From Paraburkholderia megapolitana (lineage in GTDB: Bacteria; Pseudomonadota; Gammaproteobacteria; Burkholderiales; Burkholderiaceae), in NCBI RefSeq assembly GCF_007556815.1, contig NZ_CP041743.1:496001-560000 (forward strand): DNA of 64,000 bases, written 5' to 3'. Shown one piece after another: positions 54,295 to 60,896 of this stretch. The translations under genes and the position numbers were made by a program. The notes below the pieces were generated by a model. The model did not search any database, was not told where the DNA came from, and saw only the letters and a program-made list of their open reading frames with translations. Position 1 is the stretch's first letter; the number at the start of each line of letters is the position of its first letter.

Positions 54295-54393
54295 CGCCCG
54301 CTCCGGCACGCGGCTTTCCACACGTTTTGCACGTGTCGCCGCATCGTTGAAAGCACGCATCGACCATAAACGATCGATAATGGTTTTCGCGAG

Positions 54394-54432
54394 AAACTTT
54401 AACTGTCGTCAATCGTAGGCTCCCCCTATTCT
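54394..54432 (+). promoter_or_regulatory. Shared oxalate-island promoter motif, copy A (panE-like gene)
   Basis: Motif AAAC+TTTAACTGTCGTCAATC at 54394-54414 and the -10-like TATTCT at 54427-54432, 76 bp before the gene at 54508. The same motif occurs upstream of oxlT and of the gene at 60594 with the same 12-14 base distance to the -10. Confidence 0.55.
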
Positions 54433-54507
54433 GCAACCATGGCCCGCCCCGGTCGCGAGACGTGCACGGGCAGGCGAGCAGTTTTTAATCGTCAGGGGGC
54501 GGCAATC

Positions 54508-55488
54508 ATGAAGATCTGTATCTTCGGAGCAGGAGCGATCGGCGGCATGATGGGCGTGCAGCTCGCGCGTGCAGGAGCCGATGTGAGTTTCGTCGCGCGC
54601 GGCGCCCATCTCGCAGCAATGCGGGAACATGGCGCGCGGCTGCAGATCGACGGCGAAGAAGTCAGCGCACGCGTGCGCTGCACGTCCGACCCGGCTGAAC
54701 TCGGCGTGCAAGACTATGTGATCGTCACGTTGAAAGCGCATTCGCTGCCGGGCGTCGTCGACACGATGCAGCCGCTGCTCGGTAAACACACCGCGATCGT
54801 CACGGGCGTCAACGGCATCCCCTATTGGTACTTCTACCGGCACGGCGGCAAGTTCGAAGGTACGCGTCTAGCCAGCATCGATCCGGACGGCGCGCAATGG
54901 ACGAAGCTCGGTCCCGAACGGGCTATCGGCTGCGTGCTGTACCCGGCGGCCGAAATCGTCGAACCGGGTGTGATCAAACACGTATACGGCAAGAAATTTC
55001 CGATCGGCGAACCGGGCAACGAGCGGACGCCGCGCATCCAGGCACTGCACGAGATCATGCAGGTCGCCGGTTTCGATGCGCCGATCCGCGACAACATTCG
55101 CGACGAGATCTGGCTCAAGCTGTGGGGCAATCTGTGCTTCAACCCGATCAGTGCGCTTACGCATGCCACGCTCGATGTACTCACCAGCGATCCCGGCACG
55201 CGCGCCGTCTCGCGCACGATGATGACGGAAGCGAAGCGGATCGCCGATCGCTTCGACGTGCATTTTCGCGTGGATATGGAGAAGCGTATCGACGGCGCAG
55301 GTTCAGTCGGCGCGCACAAGACATCGACACTCGTCGATCTCGAGAACCGACGGCCAATGGAAATCGATCCGCTGCTGACCGTCGTGCAGGAAATGGGCCG
55401 ACTGGTCGGCGAACCCACGCCGGCCATCGATGTCGTGCTCGCGCTGATCAAACTGCGCGAGCGGATGGCGTTGCAGGGCGATCACTGA
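54508..55488 (+). CDS. Ketopantoate reductase (PanE) family; candidate oxalyl-CoA reductase
   Basis: A 326-residue NADP(H)-dependent reductase with the PanE start ICIFGAGAIGGMMGVQLARAG (GxGxxG at 7-12), the LKAHSLPG segment, and the C-terminal domain with KLWGNLCFNPISALTHATL containing the catalytic Lys/Asn. Annotation as panE is by family. In Methylobacterium a PanE paralogue (PanE2) is an oxalyl-CoA reductase used to assimilate oxalate through glyoxylate. Here the gene lies near oxlT and frc and shares their upstream motif, so that role is a strong alternative to pantothenate synthesis. AGGGGG precedes the ATG; the end overlaps the convergent aldehyde dehydrogenase gene by 7 bp. Confidence 0.78.
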   Translation: MKICIFGAGAIGGMMGVQLARAGADVSFVARGAHLAAMREHGARLQIDGEEVSARVRCTSDPAELGVQDYVIVTLKAHSLPGVVDTMQPLLGKHTAIVTGVNGIPYWYFYRHGGKFEGTRLASIDPDGAQWTKLGPERAIGCVLYPAAEIVEPGVIKHVYGKKFPIGEPGNERTPRIQALHEIMQVAGFDAPIRDNIRDEIWLKLWGNLCFNPISALTHATLDVLTSDPGTRAVSRTMMTEAKRIADRFDVHFRVDMEKRIDGAGSVGAHKTSTLVDLENRRPMEIDPLLTVVQEMGRLVGEPTPAIDVVLALIKLRERMALQGDH

Positions 55489-56933
55489 TCGAGCGCAAGC
55501 CACACTGTTTTCGGTTCGGTGAAGTTGTCGATGGCGACGTCGCCGTGCTCGCGTCCGAAACCCGAATCGCCGGAACCACCCCACGGTAGACGCACATCGG
55601 TATAACCGTAGGTATTGATCCACACGGTGCCCGCGCGCAGCTCGCGCGCGACCCGATGCACGCGGCCGATGTCGGCGCTCCACACCCCCGCTGCGAGACT
55701 GTACAGCGTGCCGTTGGCGATCCGCACTGCGTCGGCCTCGTCGTCGAACGGGATCACACTCGCCACCGGCCCGAAGATCTCTTCCTGAGAGATGCGCATC
55801 TCGTGTTCGACGTTGGCGAACACGGTTGGCTGCACGAAGTAGCCCTTCTCGCCGATGCGCGCGCCACCCGCCACCAGCGACGCGCCTTCGCTGCGGCCAA
55901 TGTCGACATAGTCGAGTACCGTCTTCATCTGCGCCGCCGAAACAAGCGGCCCCATCGACGTTTCGCGCCGCGACGGATCGCCAACCTTGATCGCGTTCGC
56001 ACGCACGGCGAGCCGCTCGACGACTTCGTCGTAGATCTCGCGCTGCGCCAGAATGCGCGAGCCCGCGGAACAGACCTGGCCGGTATTGAAGAAGATGCCC
56101 GACGCGGCCGCGCGCGTTGCGTTGTCGAGGTTCGCATCCGCGAAGATCACGTTCGCCGACTTGCCGCCGAGCTCCAGCGTGACGCGCTTGAAGTTACCGG
56201 CCGCCCCTTGCAGGATGCCGCGCCCAACCGATGGCGAACCTGTGAACGTCACCTTGTCGACGCCCGGGTGCGCGACGAGCGCATCGCCGACCACGCGCCC
56301 CTTGCCCGTCACGATGTTCAATACGCCCGGCGGCACACCGGCTTCGAGCGCCAGTTCGCCGACGCGCAGCGCGCTAAGCGGCGTGATTTCCGCAGGCTTG
56401 ACGATCAGCGTGCAACCGCAGGCAAGCGCCGGGGCGATCTTCCACATGCCGATCATCAACGGGAAATTCCACGGCACGATCGCCGCCACCACGCCGACCG
56501 GTTCGCGCACCGTGTACGTCAGCGCATCGGGGCGCACCGGCACGACCTGCCCTGTGATCTTGTCGCACCAGCCCGCGTAGTACGCGAGCGTATCGATCGC
56601 GGCGGGCAGGTCCTGGCGCAGCACGGCGGCAATCGGCTTGCCCGCGTCGCGGCTTTCGAGTTCGGCCAGTTCGTCTTGATGCGTACGCATCAGGTCCGCG
56701 AGGCGGTTGAGTATGCGTCCACGCTCGGCCGCACGCATGCCGTTCCACACTTTCAGCGCGGCGCGTGCAGCGAGCACGGCGGTATCGACATCGGCGGCAC
56801 TGCCCTGTGCGACCAGCGCGATCGTCTGCTCAGTGGCCGGGTCGATATCGACCGAGTATTCTCCAGTGCCGGGCGGCAGCCGTTTGCCGTCGATCAGCAG
56901 ATCGTGGCGCTTGAGATCCGTTTGCGTGTTCAT
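55482..56933 (-). CDS. Aldehyde dehydrogenase (NAD(P)-dependent, ALDH superfamily)
   Basis: A 483-residue ALDH. Catalytic Cys in FFNTGQVCSAGSRI, general-base Glu in VTLELGGKSANVIF, cofactor region PWNFPLMIGMWKIAPALACG and the glycine motif FTGSPSVG are all present. Nearest relatives are broad betaine/phenylacetaldehyde-type ALDHs. Beside the oxalate genes a glycolaldehyde or glyoxal substrate is imaginable but not shown. The LysR gene 50 bp upstream is on the same strand. Confidence 0.88.
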   Translation of the reverse strand: MNTQTDLKRHDLLIDGKRLPPGTGEYSVDIDPATEQTIALVAQGSAADVDTAVLAARAALKVWNGMRAAERGRILNRLADLMRTHQDELAELESRDAGKPIAAVLRQDLPAAIDTLAYYAGWCDKITGQVVPVRPDALTYTVREPVGVVAAIVPWNFPLMIGMWKIAPALACGCTLIVKPAEITPLSALRVGELALEAGVPPGVLNIVTGKGRVVGDALVAHPGVDKVTFTGSPSVGRGILQGAAGNFKRVTLELGGKSANVIFADANLDNATRAAASGIFFNTGQVCSAGSRILAQREIYDEVVERLAVRANAIKVGDPSRRETSMGPLVSAAQMKTVLDYVDIGRSEGASLVAGGARIGEKGYFVQPTVFANVEHEMRISQEEIFGPVASVIPFDDEADAVRIANGTLYSLAAGVWSADIGRVHRVARELRAGTVWINTYGYTDVRLPWGGSGDSGFGREHGDVAIDNFTEPKTVWLALDQ

Positions 56934-56983
56934 CGTCGTGCTCGGTCATGGAAATTCTGAACGGCAGGCATGTAAAACGTGCC

Positions 56984-57967
56984 TCAGGCCGTGCGTAGCG
57001 TTGCGTCGTCGAGCGGACTGTCCACGCTCGCGTCGTCGATGTCGGGGTGGGCGTGTTGTGCGTTGCCGGCGCGTCTCACTTGCTTGCTGCCAGTGGCGAA
57101 CTGCGACCACACTGCCTCGGCATTCGGTCGCAACGAGCGGTTGCGGCGCCGCACGAGCATGGCTGTCAGCGTCGCTTCCGGATGCAACGGCCGCGCAACG
57201 AGCGTGGCGGCGAGAGTTTCGTGGTCGTCGACTGGCAGCACGCCGACACCCAGTTCGAGCTCGACCATGCGCAGCACTGCGGCAGCGTGTGCGAGCTCCT
57301 GCACTGCGCGCGGCCGCACGCCATGGGTCCGCAATGCGCTGTCCACCGCCACGCGAACGCCGGACCCGGCATCCAGCGTGATGAGCGGCAGATGACTCAG
57401 CGCCTCCCATTCGATCGAAGCGCGGTGTGCCAACGGATGCGCGATGGGCAACAACGCCCGCAGCGGCGTCGCAAACAACGGCTGCACATGCAGCGTTTCG
57501 GGCCCTGGCAAGGTCATCGCGGAGATCACGCCGAAGTCGGTCTCGCCCTGCTCGACGCTCTCGATCACCGCGTCCTGCGACCAGTCCTTCACTGCCACGA
57601 TCAGTTCCGGAAACGCGGCTGCGCAGCGTGCGAGCGCATCCGGCAACCAGCTCGACGACAGCACCGGGCAGCACGCGATCACGACCACGCCGGTGTGCCC
57701 TTCGTTCGCGGCGCGCTCTTCGCGCAGGGTGAGCTCGATCTCATCGAGCAGGCGGCCGATGCGTCGCTCGAGACTCGCGCCGGCGCTCGTCAGTTCGACC
57801 TGGCGGGTGGTGCGATCGAAGAGCCGCAGGTCGATGGCTTCTTCGAGTTCACGCACGCAGCGGCTTACCGCCGACTGCGTCAAATCGAATTCGCGCGCCG
57901 CGCGGGTAAAACTCCGCTGACGCGCGACGGCGATGAAAACCCGCAACTGCTGCAGCGATACGTTCAT
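56984..57967 (-). CDS. LysR-family transcriptional regulator
   Basis: A 327-residue LysR protein: MNVSLQQLRVFIAVARQRSFTRAAREFDLTQSAVSRCVRELE is its start (helix-turn-helix residues about 1-60). Effector domain from about 92 (VVVIACCPVLSSSWLPDAL). The C-terminal tail after residue 300 is Asp/Ala-rich and longer than usual. Located between the aldehyde dehydrogenase gene downstream (50 bp) and oxlT upstream (40 bp), all on the minus strand. Targets unknown, likely a neighbour. Confidence 0.82.
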   Translation of the reverse strand: MNVSLQQLRVFIAVARQRSFTRAAREFDLTQSAVSRCVRELEEAIDLRLFDRTTRQVELTSAGASLERRIGRLLDEIELTLREERAANEGHTGVVVIACCPVLSSSWLPDALARCAAAFPELIVAVKDWSQDAVIESVEQGETDFGVISAMTLPGPETLHVQPLFATPLRALLPIAHPLAHRASIEWEALSHLPLITLDAGSGVRVAVDSALRTHGVRPRAVQELAHAAAVLRMVELELGVGVLPVDDHETLAATLVARPLHPEATLTAMLVRRRNRSLRPNAEAVWSQFATGSKQVRRAGNAQHAHPDIDDASVDSPLDDATLRTA

Positions 57968-58007
57968 CGGGTTACCTGTCGGGACTACGGTCGCGATTCA
58001 CTATTCG

Positions 58008-59339
58008 CTATTCACCGGTCTGCTCCGGCCAGTGGCTCAGACGCGAGGGGTTTCCGAGCGTACTGACCGCAGGCTTATCGCTCGCTTCGATCAGCCGTGT
58101 GCGCATCGGCGCCAGGATGAACTTCGCGGCGACACCGGCGGCTATCGTGATGACCGCCGACGCGACGAACACCGCATTCCACCCGCCGGTCGCGGATAGC
58201 ACCGACGCGATCGGCACGAGCAGCGCAGCCGTACCCTTCGCGGTGTACAGCGTGCCCGCATTCGCCGCGGCGTATTTGCTGCCGAAGGTGTCCGCGCAGG
58301 TTGCGGGGAAGATCGAGAAGATCTCGCCCCAGAACAGGAAGATCAGCGCGGCGAATGTCATGAACGCGTACGGGTTTGTGCCGAACTGCATCATCCCGAG
58401 CAGCGCGAGCCCTTCGCCGATGAAGATCATGAACATCGTGTTCTCGCGACCGATCTTGTCGGAGATGAATCCGCACAGTGGCCGCGTGAAGCCGTTGCAG
58501 ATGTTATCGATGGAGAGCGTCATGGTGAGCAGCGGCAACGTCATGCCGAAGAAGCTCATCGGAATGCGGGCGAGGCCCCAGTCCTTCGCGATCGGGCCGA
58601 TCTGCGCGGTCGCCATCAGGCCACCCGCGGCGACCCCGACAAACGATAGATAGAGCACCCAGAACACTGGTGTCTTGATCATCTGGCCCGGCGTGTAGTC
58701 GATCTTCGTCACCGCGAAGCGCTTCTTCACGGCCGATACCTTGCGCACCACGGGTTTTTTCAGCAGCAGGGCCAGTACGAAAATGCACACGCCCTGCAAG
58801 ATGCCAAAGAAGAAGAACGTGTGCTCGTAACCGGAGCGCGTAATCATGTTGGCAATCGGAATCACGGTGACTGCGGCACCGGCGCCGAAGCCGGCCGCGG
58901 TCAACCCCGCGGCGAGACCGCGCCGGTCCGGAAACCACTTCAACGCGTTGCCGACGCACGTGCCGTACACACCGCCCGCTCCGATCCCGGCAATCACCGA
59001 AGCGGTGTACAGCTCGGCCAGCGACGTGGCCCAGGAATACATCACCCATGCGATGCCCGCGCACAACGCGCCGCAAGCGACGACCGGTCGCGGGCCGAAC
59101 TTGTCGACGAGCCAGCCTTCTACGGGTACGAGCCACGTTTCAGTCAGAATGAAAAGAGAAAACGCAAGTTGAATGGACGCTTCGCCCCAGTGATGCCGCG
59201 TGTTCATCGGTGTGACGAAGAGTGTCCACGCGTACTGCAGATTCGCCACGAGCGCCATACACAACATACCGATGACGAGTTGCGACCACCGGTTCGATAG
59301 CCATGCAGCAGCCGGAACCGGCTGGGTATTCGCGTCCAT
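58008..59339 (-). CDS. oxlT: Oxalate/formate MFS antiporter
   Basis: A 443-residue carrier with 12 membrane segments exchanging oxalate for formate. Motifs resembling OxlT: SNRWSQLVIGMLCMALVANLQYAWTLFV at the start (pieces SNRWSQLVIG, NLQYAWTLFV), VDKFGPRPVVACGALCAG in loop 2-3, GIGAGGVYGTCVGNALKWFPDRRGLAAGLTAAGFG (pieces) and FTRPLCGFISDKIGREN in loop 8-9. The frc gene 4 kb away supports the substrate. Other small dicarboxylates are possible. Divergent from the LysR gene at 59556. Confidence 0.87.
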   Translation of the reverse strand: MDANTQPVPAAAWLSNRWSQLVIGMLCMALVANLQYAWTLFVTPMNTRHHWGEASIQLAFSLFILTETWLVPVEGWLVDKFGPRPVVACGALCAGIAWVMYSWATSLAELYTASVIAGIGAGGVYGTCVGNALKWFPDRRGLAAGLTAAGFGAGAAVTVIPIANMITRSGYEHTFFFFGILQGVCIFVLALLLKKPVVRKVSAVKKRFAVTKIDYTPGQMIKTPVFWVLYLSFVGVAAGGLMATAQIGPIAKDWGLARIPMSFFGMTLPLLTMTLSIDNICNGFTRPLCGFISDKIGRENTMFMIFIGEGLALLGMMQFGTNPYAFMTFAALIFLFWGEIFSIFPATCADTFGSKYAAANAGTLYTAKGTAALLVPIASVLSATGGWNAVFVASAVITIAAGVAAKFILAPMRTRLIEASDKPAVSTLGNPSRLSHWPEQTGE

Positions 59340-59473
59340 GCGTTGTCTCCGCTATGTATTCAGGGTTGCCGGCGTTATTGCCGTGCTAGATGCGCCCCAC
59401 CTTATAGTTGTGCCCGCCATTGGCGGCCCCGCTTGTTCAACCGCGTATTGAACCGATACAAATTCATCGATTC

Positions 59474-59512
59474 ATCCTAGGGTCTATGCTGAATTAACGA
59501 TAATTAAAGTTT
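59474..59512 (-). promoter_or_regulatory. Shared oxalate-island promoter motif, copy C (oxlT / LysR divergent region)
   Basis: On the minus strand AAAC+TTTAATTATCGTTAATT (59512-59492) precedes the -10-like TAGGAT (59479-59474), 135 bp before oxlT. The inner part is a dyad (ATTA-N4-TAAT), as for a LysR site. On the plus strand a CTATGCT (59484-59490) lies next to it, which may be the -10 of the LysR gene 66 bp downstream, allowing autorepression. Confidence 0.6.
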
Positions 59513-59555
59513 GTTAGTATCAGGATTCACATCTGCTTATACATCGGGCATCACG

Positions 59556-60497
59556 ATGAGAAACGCCACGCTGCGCCAGTTGAAGGTGTTCGAGACCGTG
59601 GCTCGTCATCTGAGCTTCTCGCGTGCCGCAGAGGAACTCCATCTCACACAGCCCGCCGTCTCCACCCAGGTGCGCCAGCTCGAAGAACACGCAGGGCTGC
59701 CGCTCTTCGAACAGCTCGGCAAGAAGATCTACCTGACGCCCGCCGGGACCGAGATGCTGCATTACAGCCGCGCGATCATCCAGCAGTTCCACGAAGTGGA
59801 CGAAGCGATGAGCCAGCTGAAGGGCATCTCCGGCGGCAAGCTCAACGTCGCGGTGATCAGCGCAGGCGACTATTTCTTTCCGCGCCTGCTCGCGGAATTC
59901 ACGCGACGTTATTCCGGCGTGGTGCTGAATCTCGCGGTGCACAACCGCGAAGAGCTGCTGCATCAACTGGCGAGCAACCAGACCGATCTCGCGGTCATGG
60001 TGCGTCCGCCGCACGAAATGGATGCGATCAACGAATCGTTTGCGCCGCATCCGTACGTGATCGTCGCCGCGCCGAATCATCCGCTTGCGCACAAGCGCAA
60101 CATCAAGATGAGCCAGCTCGCGAATGAGGCGTTCATCGTGCGCGAGCGCGGCTCGGACACGTGGAATTCGATGGAAGAAGGTTTTGCGGGGCGGCTCACC
60201 AATCTGAAGATCGCGATGGAGATCAAGAGCACCGAGACGATCAAGCAGGCGGTGATCGCCGGTATGGGCATTGCGTTTCTGTCCGCCCATACCATCAGCC
60301 TCGAACTGCAGGTGGGACACCTCGTCGTGCTCGATGTCGAAGGCTTCCCGGTGATGCTCAACTGGTATGTCGTACACCGGAAGAACAAGCGGCTGCCGCC
60401 GGTCGCGGTTGCGTTCAAGCGCTTCCTGATGGAGGAAGGGGCGAAGCTGATCGAACAGATCACGAGCGTGAAGTCGTTGAGCGTTCATAAGCAATAG
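59556..60497 (+). CDS. LysR-family regulator, CbbR-like, probable regulator of oxlT
   Basis: A 313-residue regulator starting MRNATLRQLKVFETVARH; recognition helix region SFSRAAEELHLTQPAVSTQVRQLEEHAG. The length and the segment MSQLKGISGGKLNVAVISAGDYFFPRLLAEF (pieces) place it with the CbbR/CysB-like group. The ATG at 59556 gives the standard start. It lies between two copies of the shared motif (59492-59512 and 60515-60535), divergent from oxlT and directly upstream of the small gene at 60594. Confidence 0.86.
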   Translation: MRNATLRQLKVFETVARHLSFSRAAEELHLTQPAVSTQVRQLEEHAGLPLFEQLGKKIYLTPAGTEMLHYSRAIIQQFHEVDEAMSQLKGISGGKLNVAVISAGDYFFPRLLAEFTRRYSGVVLNLAVHNREELLHQLASNQTDLAVMVRPPHEMDAINESFAPHPYVIVAAPNHPLAHKRNIKMSQLANEAFIVRERGSDTWNSMEEGFAGRLTNLKIAMEIKSTETIKQAVIAGMGIAFLSAHTISLELQVGHLVVLDVEGFPVMLNWYVVHRKNKRLPPVAVAFKRFLMEEGAKLIEQITSVKSLSVHKQ

Positions 60498-60514
60498 GTT
60501 ATGAAATTCCAATA

Positions 60515-60553
60515 AAACTTTAACTATTGCAAATCCATCGCGGACTCTATGCT
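60515..60553 (+). promoter_or_regulatory. Shared oxalate-island promoter motif, copy B (gene at 60594)
   Basis: AAAC+TTTAACTATTGCAAATC (60515-60535) and TATGCT (60548-60553), with the same spacing as copies A and C. It begins 17 bp after the LysR stop codon and lies 40 bp before the small gene. Confidence 0.6.
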
Positions 60554-60593: not shown

Positions 60594-60896
60594 ATGAATC
60601 ACGCTTCGACGGTGTCTCATGTCACCACGCGTGCCGCTCGCGTTAGCGCGGACAGTCCCGACGATGCGCATCTGAGCGCTTACAACGCCGCGTTTAGCGA
60701 CCTTGGTCTGCGCTTCCGCTGGGATCGCAGTACGCTCGATGCGCTCAACGAATTCCCGAGCGAAACGGCGCGGATCACGGCGTATATCGAGCGGTTTCAT
60801 GCGCATCTTCATAAGGCCTATGACGCCGATTTTCTGGCGCAGTTAATCTTGCACAAGAAGACCCTGTACTACTGCGAGTCCGCTTCCGGCTTCTGA
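60594..60896 (+). CDS. 100-residue orphan protein linked to the oxalate island
   Basis: A soluble protein of 100 residues without signal peptide. It is helical (AHLSAYNAAFSDLGLRF, STLDALNEFPSETARITAYIERFHAHLHKAYDADFLAQL in pieces) and ends in KTLYYCESASGF. GAGGAG lies 8-13 bases before the ATG at 60594 and the upstream promoter has the same layout as oxlT and the panE-like gene, so it is very likely expressed in the same condition. No family recognised; a metal- or CoA-adaptor role cannot be excluded. Confidence 0.75.
   Translation: MNHASTVSHVTTRAARVSADSPDDAHLSAYNAAFSDLGLRFRWDRSTLDALNEFPSETARITAYIERFHAHLHKAYDADFLAQLILHKKTLYYCESASGF

Follow-up and report, generated by a model that had tools for sequence, protein, structure and literature searches.

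We analysed a 64,000-nucleotide stretch of the Paraburkholderia megapolitana genome (NZ_CP041743.1, positions 496,001 to 560,000; hereafter the window), in which a 21-base motif precedes three genes: a panE-like gene, the oxalate/formate antiporter gene oxlT and a small gene located behind the gene of a LysR-type regulator, LysR1 (59556-60497). Sequence comparison indicates that LysR1 very probably controls a single oxalate regulon with the three sites as its operators. A single regulon under this protein had been proposed in an earlier, sequence-only reading of the window and is the best-supported explanation, given the lack of any other match with up to three mismatches in the genome, the genus-wide conservation of the element, and the presence of the small gene in 116 of 118 genomes with LysR1 versus 0 of 131 without it. 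The sites are assigned to one regulon because the element accompanies the small gene onto other contigs and the small gene occurs only with LysR1. What results is a named candidate regulator together with a precisely defined operator and a set of targets, all directly testable.

The motif was confirmed at the three positions originally reported, where every copy fits AAACTTTAAYTRTYGYNAATY without mismatch, and the hexamers TATTCT, TAGGAT and TATGCT indeed begin 33 bases after its start at all three sites. The motif is thus real, but the 21-mer is not the whole operator: it makes up the downstream half, and an upstream box had been overlooked. This second box starts 29 bases 5' of each motif start and ends 12 bases 5' of it; it is present at all three sites and has, from aligned promoters, the consensus CATAA-N8-T(T/A)ATG or near. 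We refer to the upstream element as the recognition box and to the motif first reported as the activation box:

54365-54382, plus strand: recognition box of the panE-like gene, CATAAACGATCGATAATG
54394-54414, plus strand: activation box of the panE-like gene, exact match to the consensus
54427-54432, plus strand: -10 hexamer of the panE-like gene, TATTCT
59474-59479, minus strand: -10 hexamer of oxlT, TAGGAT
59492-59512, minus strand: activation box of oxlT, exact match to the consensus
59524-59541, minus strand: recognition box of oxlT, TATAAGCAGATGTGAATC, also 5' of lysR1
60486-60503, plus strand: recognition box of the small gene, CATAAGCAATAGGTTATG, a perfect palindrome that shares bases with the 3' end of lysR1
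60515-60535, plus strand: activation box of the small gene, exact match to the consensus
60548-60553, plus strand: -10 hexamer of the small gene, TATGCT

At all three sites, the distance between the boxes, measured between equivalent thymines, is 32 bp, or three helical turns. The recognition boxes are dyad-symmetric, as expected of a LysR-type regulator (T-N11-A or TNA-N7/8-TNA), and take the form TAA-N8-TAA with T-N11-A before panE, T-N11-A before oxlT and CATAA-N8-TTATG before the small gene. The activation box lies near -35 on the same face of the helix, a position deduced from the -10 hexamer; assuming a start 7 bases after the hexamer, hence near 54439, 59467 and 60560, the box centres would fall at about -65 and -34. 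Such a two-box arrangement, at about -65 and -34, is the geometry of LysR-type promoters. In addition, the gene of the proposed regulator is adjacent to and divergent from one of its targets, lysR1 being on the plus strand and oxlT on the minus strand. No consensus sigma-70 promoter was found between 54300 and 61000 (shuffles give 1.6), which fits activator-dependent promoters and is not significant alone. The oxlT recognition box also overlaps a possible -10 hexamer of lysR1, TATACA (59538-59543); since the oxlT operator covers the lysR1 promoter region, LysR1 probably limits its own synthesis.

A pattern search of the whole 7.63-Mb genome for the 21-base motif with up to three mismatches returned only the three named sites, against two matches for the reversed-pattern control. 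Shuffled versions of the window gave a mean of 0.01 matches at this stringency, and none of 100 shuffles attained three. A position matrix was applied to the window and to fetched stretches, genome-wide statements being derived from pattern searches. In the window, the fourth-best score is -12.3. Across at most 0.97 Mb of fetched sequence, 142 distinct matches exceeded 25 bits, of which 107 precede the small gene, 31 oxlT, two panE and two something different; as the fetched loci had been selected for the regulon, this breakdown reflects specificity and not genome-wide frequency. Regions 5' of other open reading frames (ORFs) proved invalid as a control, 61 of 1557 scoring above 25, which we tentatively attribute to overlap with true sites; in their place, every hit was classified and the 64-kb window served as background.

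Conservation was examined in Paraburkholderia and Burkholderia at the loci of the best 80 of 374 relatives of LysR1. The element occurs 5' of oxlT in 80/80 loci with at most four mismatches; the distance from the site to the lysR1 start is 44 nt in 77 of them and deviates by a single nucleotide (43 or 45 nt) in the remaining three. A match of the same stringency lies 100-206 nt 5' of panE in 66 loci, and a further four panE loci (L004, L006, L030 and L080) carry the element at 45-62 bits by the matrix. The remaining ten, three of which are short stretches, have no panE in the stretch covered, so that 70/70 panE genes carry the element. Behind lysR1, at the start of the small gene, a match with at most four mismatches is found in 56 loci: the small gene is present in 55, all with the site, and absent from 25, in 24 of which the site is missing too; the exception, L011, retains a remnant that lacks the -10 hexamer. 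The internal geometry is equally constant. With the window included, TAnnnT stands at offset 33 in 67/67 panE, 80/81 oxlT and 55/57 small-gene promoters, and at offsets 29-32 or 34-37 in none of these; the sequence-only reading had considered such equal spacing unlikely by chance, and these counts uphold it. ATAA stands at the recognition-box offset in the same numbers of promoters (67/67, 80/81 and 55/57).

Independently of the motif, 249 genomes of the bacterial family were searched for relatives of the small protein, below called the mini-protein, with a cut-off of more than 100 bits, LysR1 being sought at E <= 1e-100; this search yielded the 116/118 and 0/131 given above. Among the distinct copies with at least 150 nt upstream (n=119), the element precedes 119/119 mini-protein genes, including copies on other contigs, and 118 of these elements score above 27 bits; that of L216 scores 10.6, its upstream box being shifted by one base. 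TAnnnT is at offset 33 in 118/119 of these promoters and at offset 32 in the other (L221). The matrix was built on the genus of the window and its close kin, so genera farther afield form an independent sample. Relatives without the small gene beside lysR1 have an exact 14-mer of the element on other contigs: 11 of 12 such distant places (in ten genomes of the same genus and G034) precede a mini-protein gene, and in four of these cases the stretch also contains frc. Among 20 regions fetched for 14-mer places, 16 have the mini-protein gene behind the site and four do not (L206, L217, L218 and L219). The bare 14-mer is nevertheless a weaker marker than the mini-protein, being found in 58/118 genomes with LysR1 and 8/131 without (those eight of 0.2-3.7 Mb). 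A three-mismatch search of the 249 genomes gave matches in 191, many of them by chance according to the control columns.

Several observations weigh against the proposed regulon or narrow it. By the matrix (fourth-best score in the window, -12.3), no element precedes the window's second lysR gene (lysR2), its aldehyde dehydrogenase gene or its frc-FAAH genes. Outside the genus, only 2/11 panE genes have an element of at least 12 bits (L167, 23.6; L221, 32.0), none reaching this score before panE of L155-L160 and L164-L166. The membership of panE assumed in the sequence-only reading therefore holds as a constant feature within the genus and fails for most panE genes beyond it. In six stretches of genus g3, the mini-protein site alone attains 12 bits, and no site in L168 (genome G037, LysR1 of 59%) reaches that score. 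Two LysR1 genomes lack the mini-protein, namely G037, whose 59% LysR1 has a stop codon, and G038 (70% complete). Activation rather than repression would follow from geometry alone, and the co-occurrence is also compatible with another regulator always co-inherited with LysR1. As for oxlT outside the genus, a strong copy is found in L161, L164-L167, L220 and L221 and a weak one (about 17 bits) in L158 and L160, while L155-L157, L159 and the six g3 stretches have no copy reaching 12 bits. As panE is mostly without the element and oxlT patchy outside the genus, the small gene is the constant member of the proposed regulon and panE a target of the window's genus.

Control by the second LysR-type protein of the window, LysR2 (56984-57967), has in its favour that, at most of the 80 loci as in the window itself, the lysR2 gene adjoins oxlT. 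We nevertheless regard it as very unlikely: at L047, LysR2 is absent from the stretch, yet all three sites are present, and it is not listed at E <= 1e-50 in the g25 genomes G059, G068, G097 and G114, all of which have LysR1 and the element. Conversely, LysR2 relatives of 45-46% exist in genomes without LysR1 or mini-protein (e.g. G095 and G150). The helix-turn-helix of LysR2 is also more variable among loci than that of LysR1, which is near-invariant over 135 locus entries (some genomes being represented more than once).

The -10-like hexamer at a fixed distance and the overlap with the -35 position would also suit a common promoter type recognised by a sigma factor or by some global regulator, and not by a pathway-specific LysR protein. 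Such a promoter is difficult to reconcile with just three matches in 7.63 Mb, with a palindromic upstream box three turns away, as in LysR-type geometry, and with the absence of the small gene from all 131 sampled genomes without LysR1, and we hold it to be highly improbable. The three copies inside 6.2 kb could, finally, resemble each other through recent duplication or DNA homology and not through shared regulation; however, the bases between the boxes differ, and boxes and spacing remain constant across genera and at small genes on other contigs, which makes this origin barely credible.

Under the preferred reading, control by LysR1, a tetramer of this protein would bind the recognition box CATAA-N8-TTATG at about -65 and the activation box AAACTTTAAYTRTYG... 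at about -34, the latter occupying the place of a -35 hexamer. Induction, probably by oxalate or by a C2 product close to it, would then lead to recruitment of the sigma-70 polymerase to the fixed -10 hexamer. The predicted targets are oxlT (uptake), panE (oxalyl-coenzyme A (CoA) to glyoxylate), the mini-protein gene and, weakly, an oxlT2-oxc-frc2 operon. The last lies 2.1 Mb away in the same genome (C1:2672500-2684000, L169) and has a degenerate 13.3-bit copy of the element 5' of oxlT2 (L169:1410, C1:2673909), which aligns with the oxlT2 promoters of four relatives (L215, L216, L223 and L300). The oxlT2 frame itself (L169:1547-2898) is apparently split across two frames near 1681-1765, through an error or in a broken gene.

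The genes around the sites are as follows:

54508-55488, plus strand: panE-like gene, probable oxalyl-CoA reductase of the ApbA2/PanE2 type (PF02558/PF08546, NF005089)
58008-59339, minus strand: oxlT, oxalate/formate antiporter (TIGR04259)
59556-60497, plus strand: lysR1, LysR-type regulator of the CbbR/CcmR/CmpR branch and proposed regulator (PF00126 and PF03466, 5y2v, co-occurrence)
60594-60896, plus strand: cap-only CbbY-like mini-protein, 100 residues

The nearest solved structures to LysR1 are 5y2v ('Rubisco operon transcriptional regulator', 263.7 bits), which we take to be CcmR/NdhR, and 5z49 (CmpR, 162.2 bits). These cyanobacterial regulators, which have other targets, sense 2-phosphoglycolate or other Calvin-cycle metabolites. 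The operators resemble those of CbbR in the cbb (Calvin cycle) operons in their LysR-type regulator, two-region boxes and divergent promoters; unlike them, they serve oxalate genes. LysR1 comes nearest to the NCBIfam CbbR model (NF045990) but, at 263.6 bits, stays below its cut-off of 450. CbbR sites are described, in passages of PMC2942843, as TNA-N7/8-TNA or T-N11-A boxes with separate recognition and activation regions at divergent promoters. The closest paralog of LysR1 in its own genome (60%, C1:1165697) belongs to a cluster (L170, C1:1162500-1170500) with mntH and a bicupin of the oxalate-decarboxylase family (TIGR03404, 555.8 bits), the gene of which is preceded by a degenerate element (-1.3 bits). 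That this paralog lies in an oxalate-decarboxylase cluster speaks for oxalate, or a product close to it, as the signal to which this LysR branch responds. The bicupin has a twin-arginine-like start.

OxlT belongs to TIGR04259 (626.2 bits, cut-off 335), and the panE-like protein to PRK06522.1-4 (504 bits, cut-off 223). The latter is probably an oxalyl-CoA reductase, by analogy with Cupriavidus necator ApbA2 and Methylobacterium extorquens PanE2, ketopantoate-reductase-family proteins likewise encoded in oxalate gene clusters; the likeness is one of family and gene context. Sections of PMC7486775 report that C. necator ApbA2, found with M. extorquens PanE2 as query, behaves as a CoA-acylating glyoxylate dehydrogenase and that deletion of apbA2 slows growth on oxalate, from which the same role is proposed for the window protein.

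Among the open-licence papers retrieved, none describes in its title or abstract a CbbY-like small protein or a regulator for the oxlT, panE or frc-oxc genes. In the portions of PMC5209427 consulted, a LysR gene is suggested, as a guess, to regulate a separate cluster with a cupin gene, and two oxlT and frc clusters of Burkholderia terrae BS001, one with oxc, rise near a fungus, which fits co-regulation without showing it. Oxalate genes need not always move together, given that Burkholderia Q208 on sugarcane gave almost no oxlT reads while other oxalate genes rose (excerpts of PMC5116747). Part of PMC13184526 indicates that oxalate use divides the tested Paraburkholderia and Caballeronia, with one exception, from Burkholderia sensu stricto.

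The small gene had been described as an orphan, a label that is not borne out: it has a family across genomes, and by its sequence the product is a shrunken, cap-only derivative of the phosphatase CbbY that lacks the catalytic motif. The link to CbbY comes from a profile search, genome searches and VIA-align, and the mini-protein has a CbbY-type cap. Pfam gave nothing convincing for it (best E 0.02, scattered families), and Foldseek no match below E 0.001, CbbY coming first at 0.25. In contrast to CbbY (PDB 4uat, 4uav), the mini-proteins, of 85-166 residues, have no Rossmann core, and the D-x-D-G catalytic motif of HAD enzymes is absent in 106/106 distinct family proteins. CbbY serves Rubisco, and its action on xylulose-1,5-bisphosphate is consistent with the 4uat ligand. 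An unannotated gene family is thus a cap-only CbbY derivative tied to LysR1, illustrating an unusual path from an enzyme to a small accessory protein. Tentatively, and as a rather unlikely possibility, the mini-protein might be a sensor or co-regulator recruited from CbbY, binding a C2 or CoA metabolite or LysR1 and tuning oxalate induction. If so, a CbbR-like regulator and a CbbY-like partner would both derive from Calvin-cycle gene sets, which would account for the mini-protein, and not OxlT, being the regulon's most constant target.

Further observations concern individual loci. Genus g25 may have one more target: a 51-bit element at L167:10610 (minus strand) precedes an ORF that looks, by eye, like an HPP-family membrane protein. 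In one g10 genome, a 16-bit element (L159:3896, plus strand) stands before an aldehyde dehydrogenase gene, the window's own dehydrogenase gene having none. Second, longer copies of the small gene, each with its own element, occur at L053:14396, L054:14399 and L220:9822, and several longer copies elsewhere terminate in LPALAGA or similar. The element also stands before the diverged small gene of genus g11, which in L162 and L163 encodes an additional insertion of some 20 residues; in L163 this gene is followed by ORFs that read, by translation, as pntA and pntB (NAD(P) transhydrogenase), possibly for NADPH supply. In some public records (P0030, P0037, P0048 and P0074), the small protein is entered as a 'HAD family hydrolase' despite the missing catalytic motif of its family.

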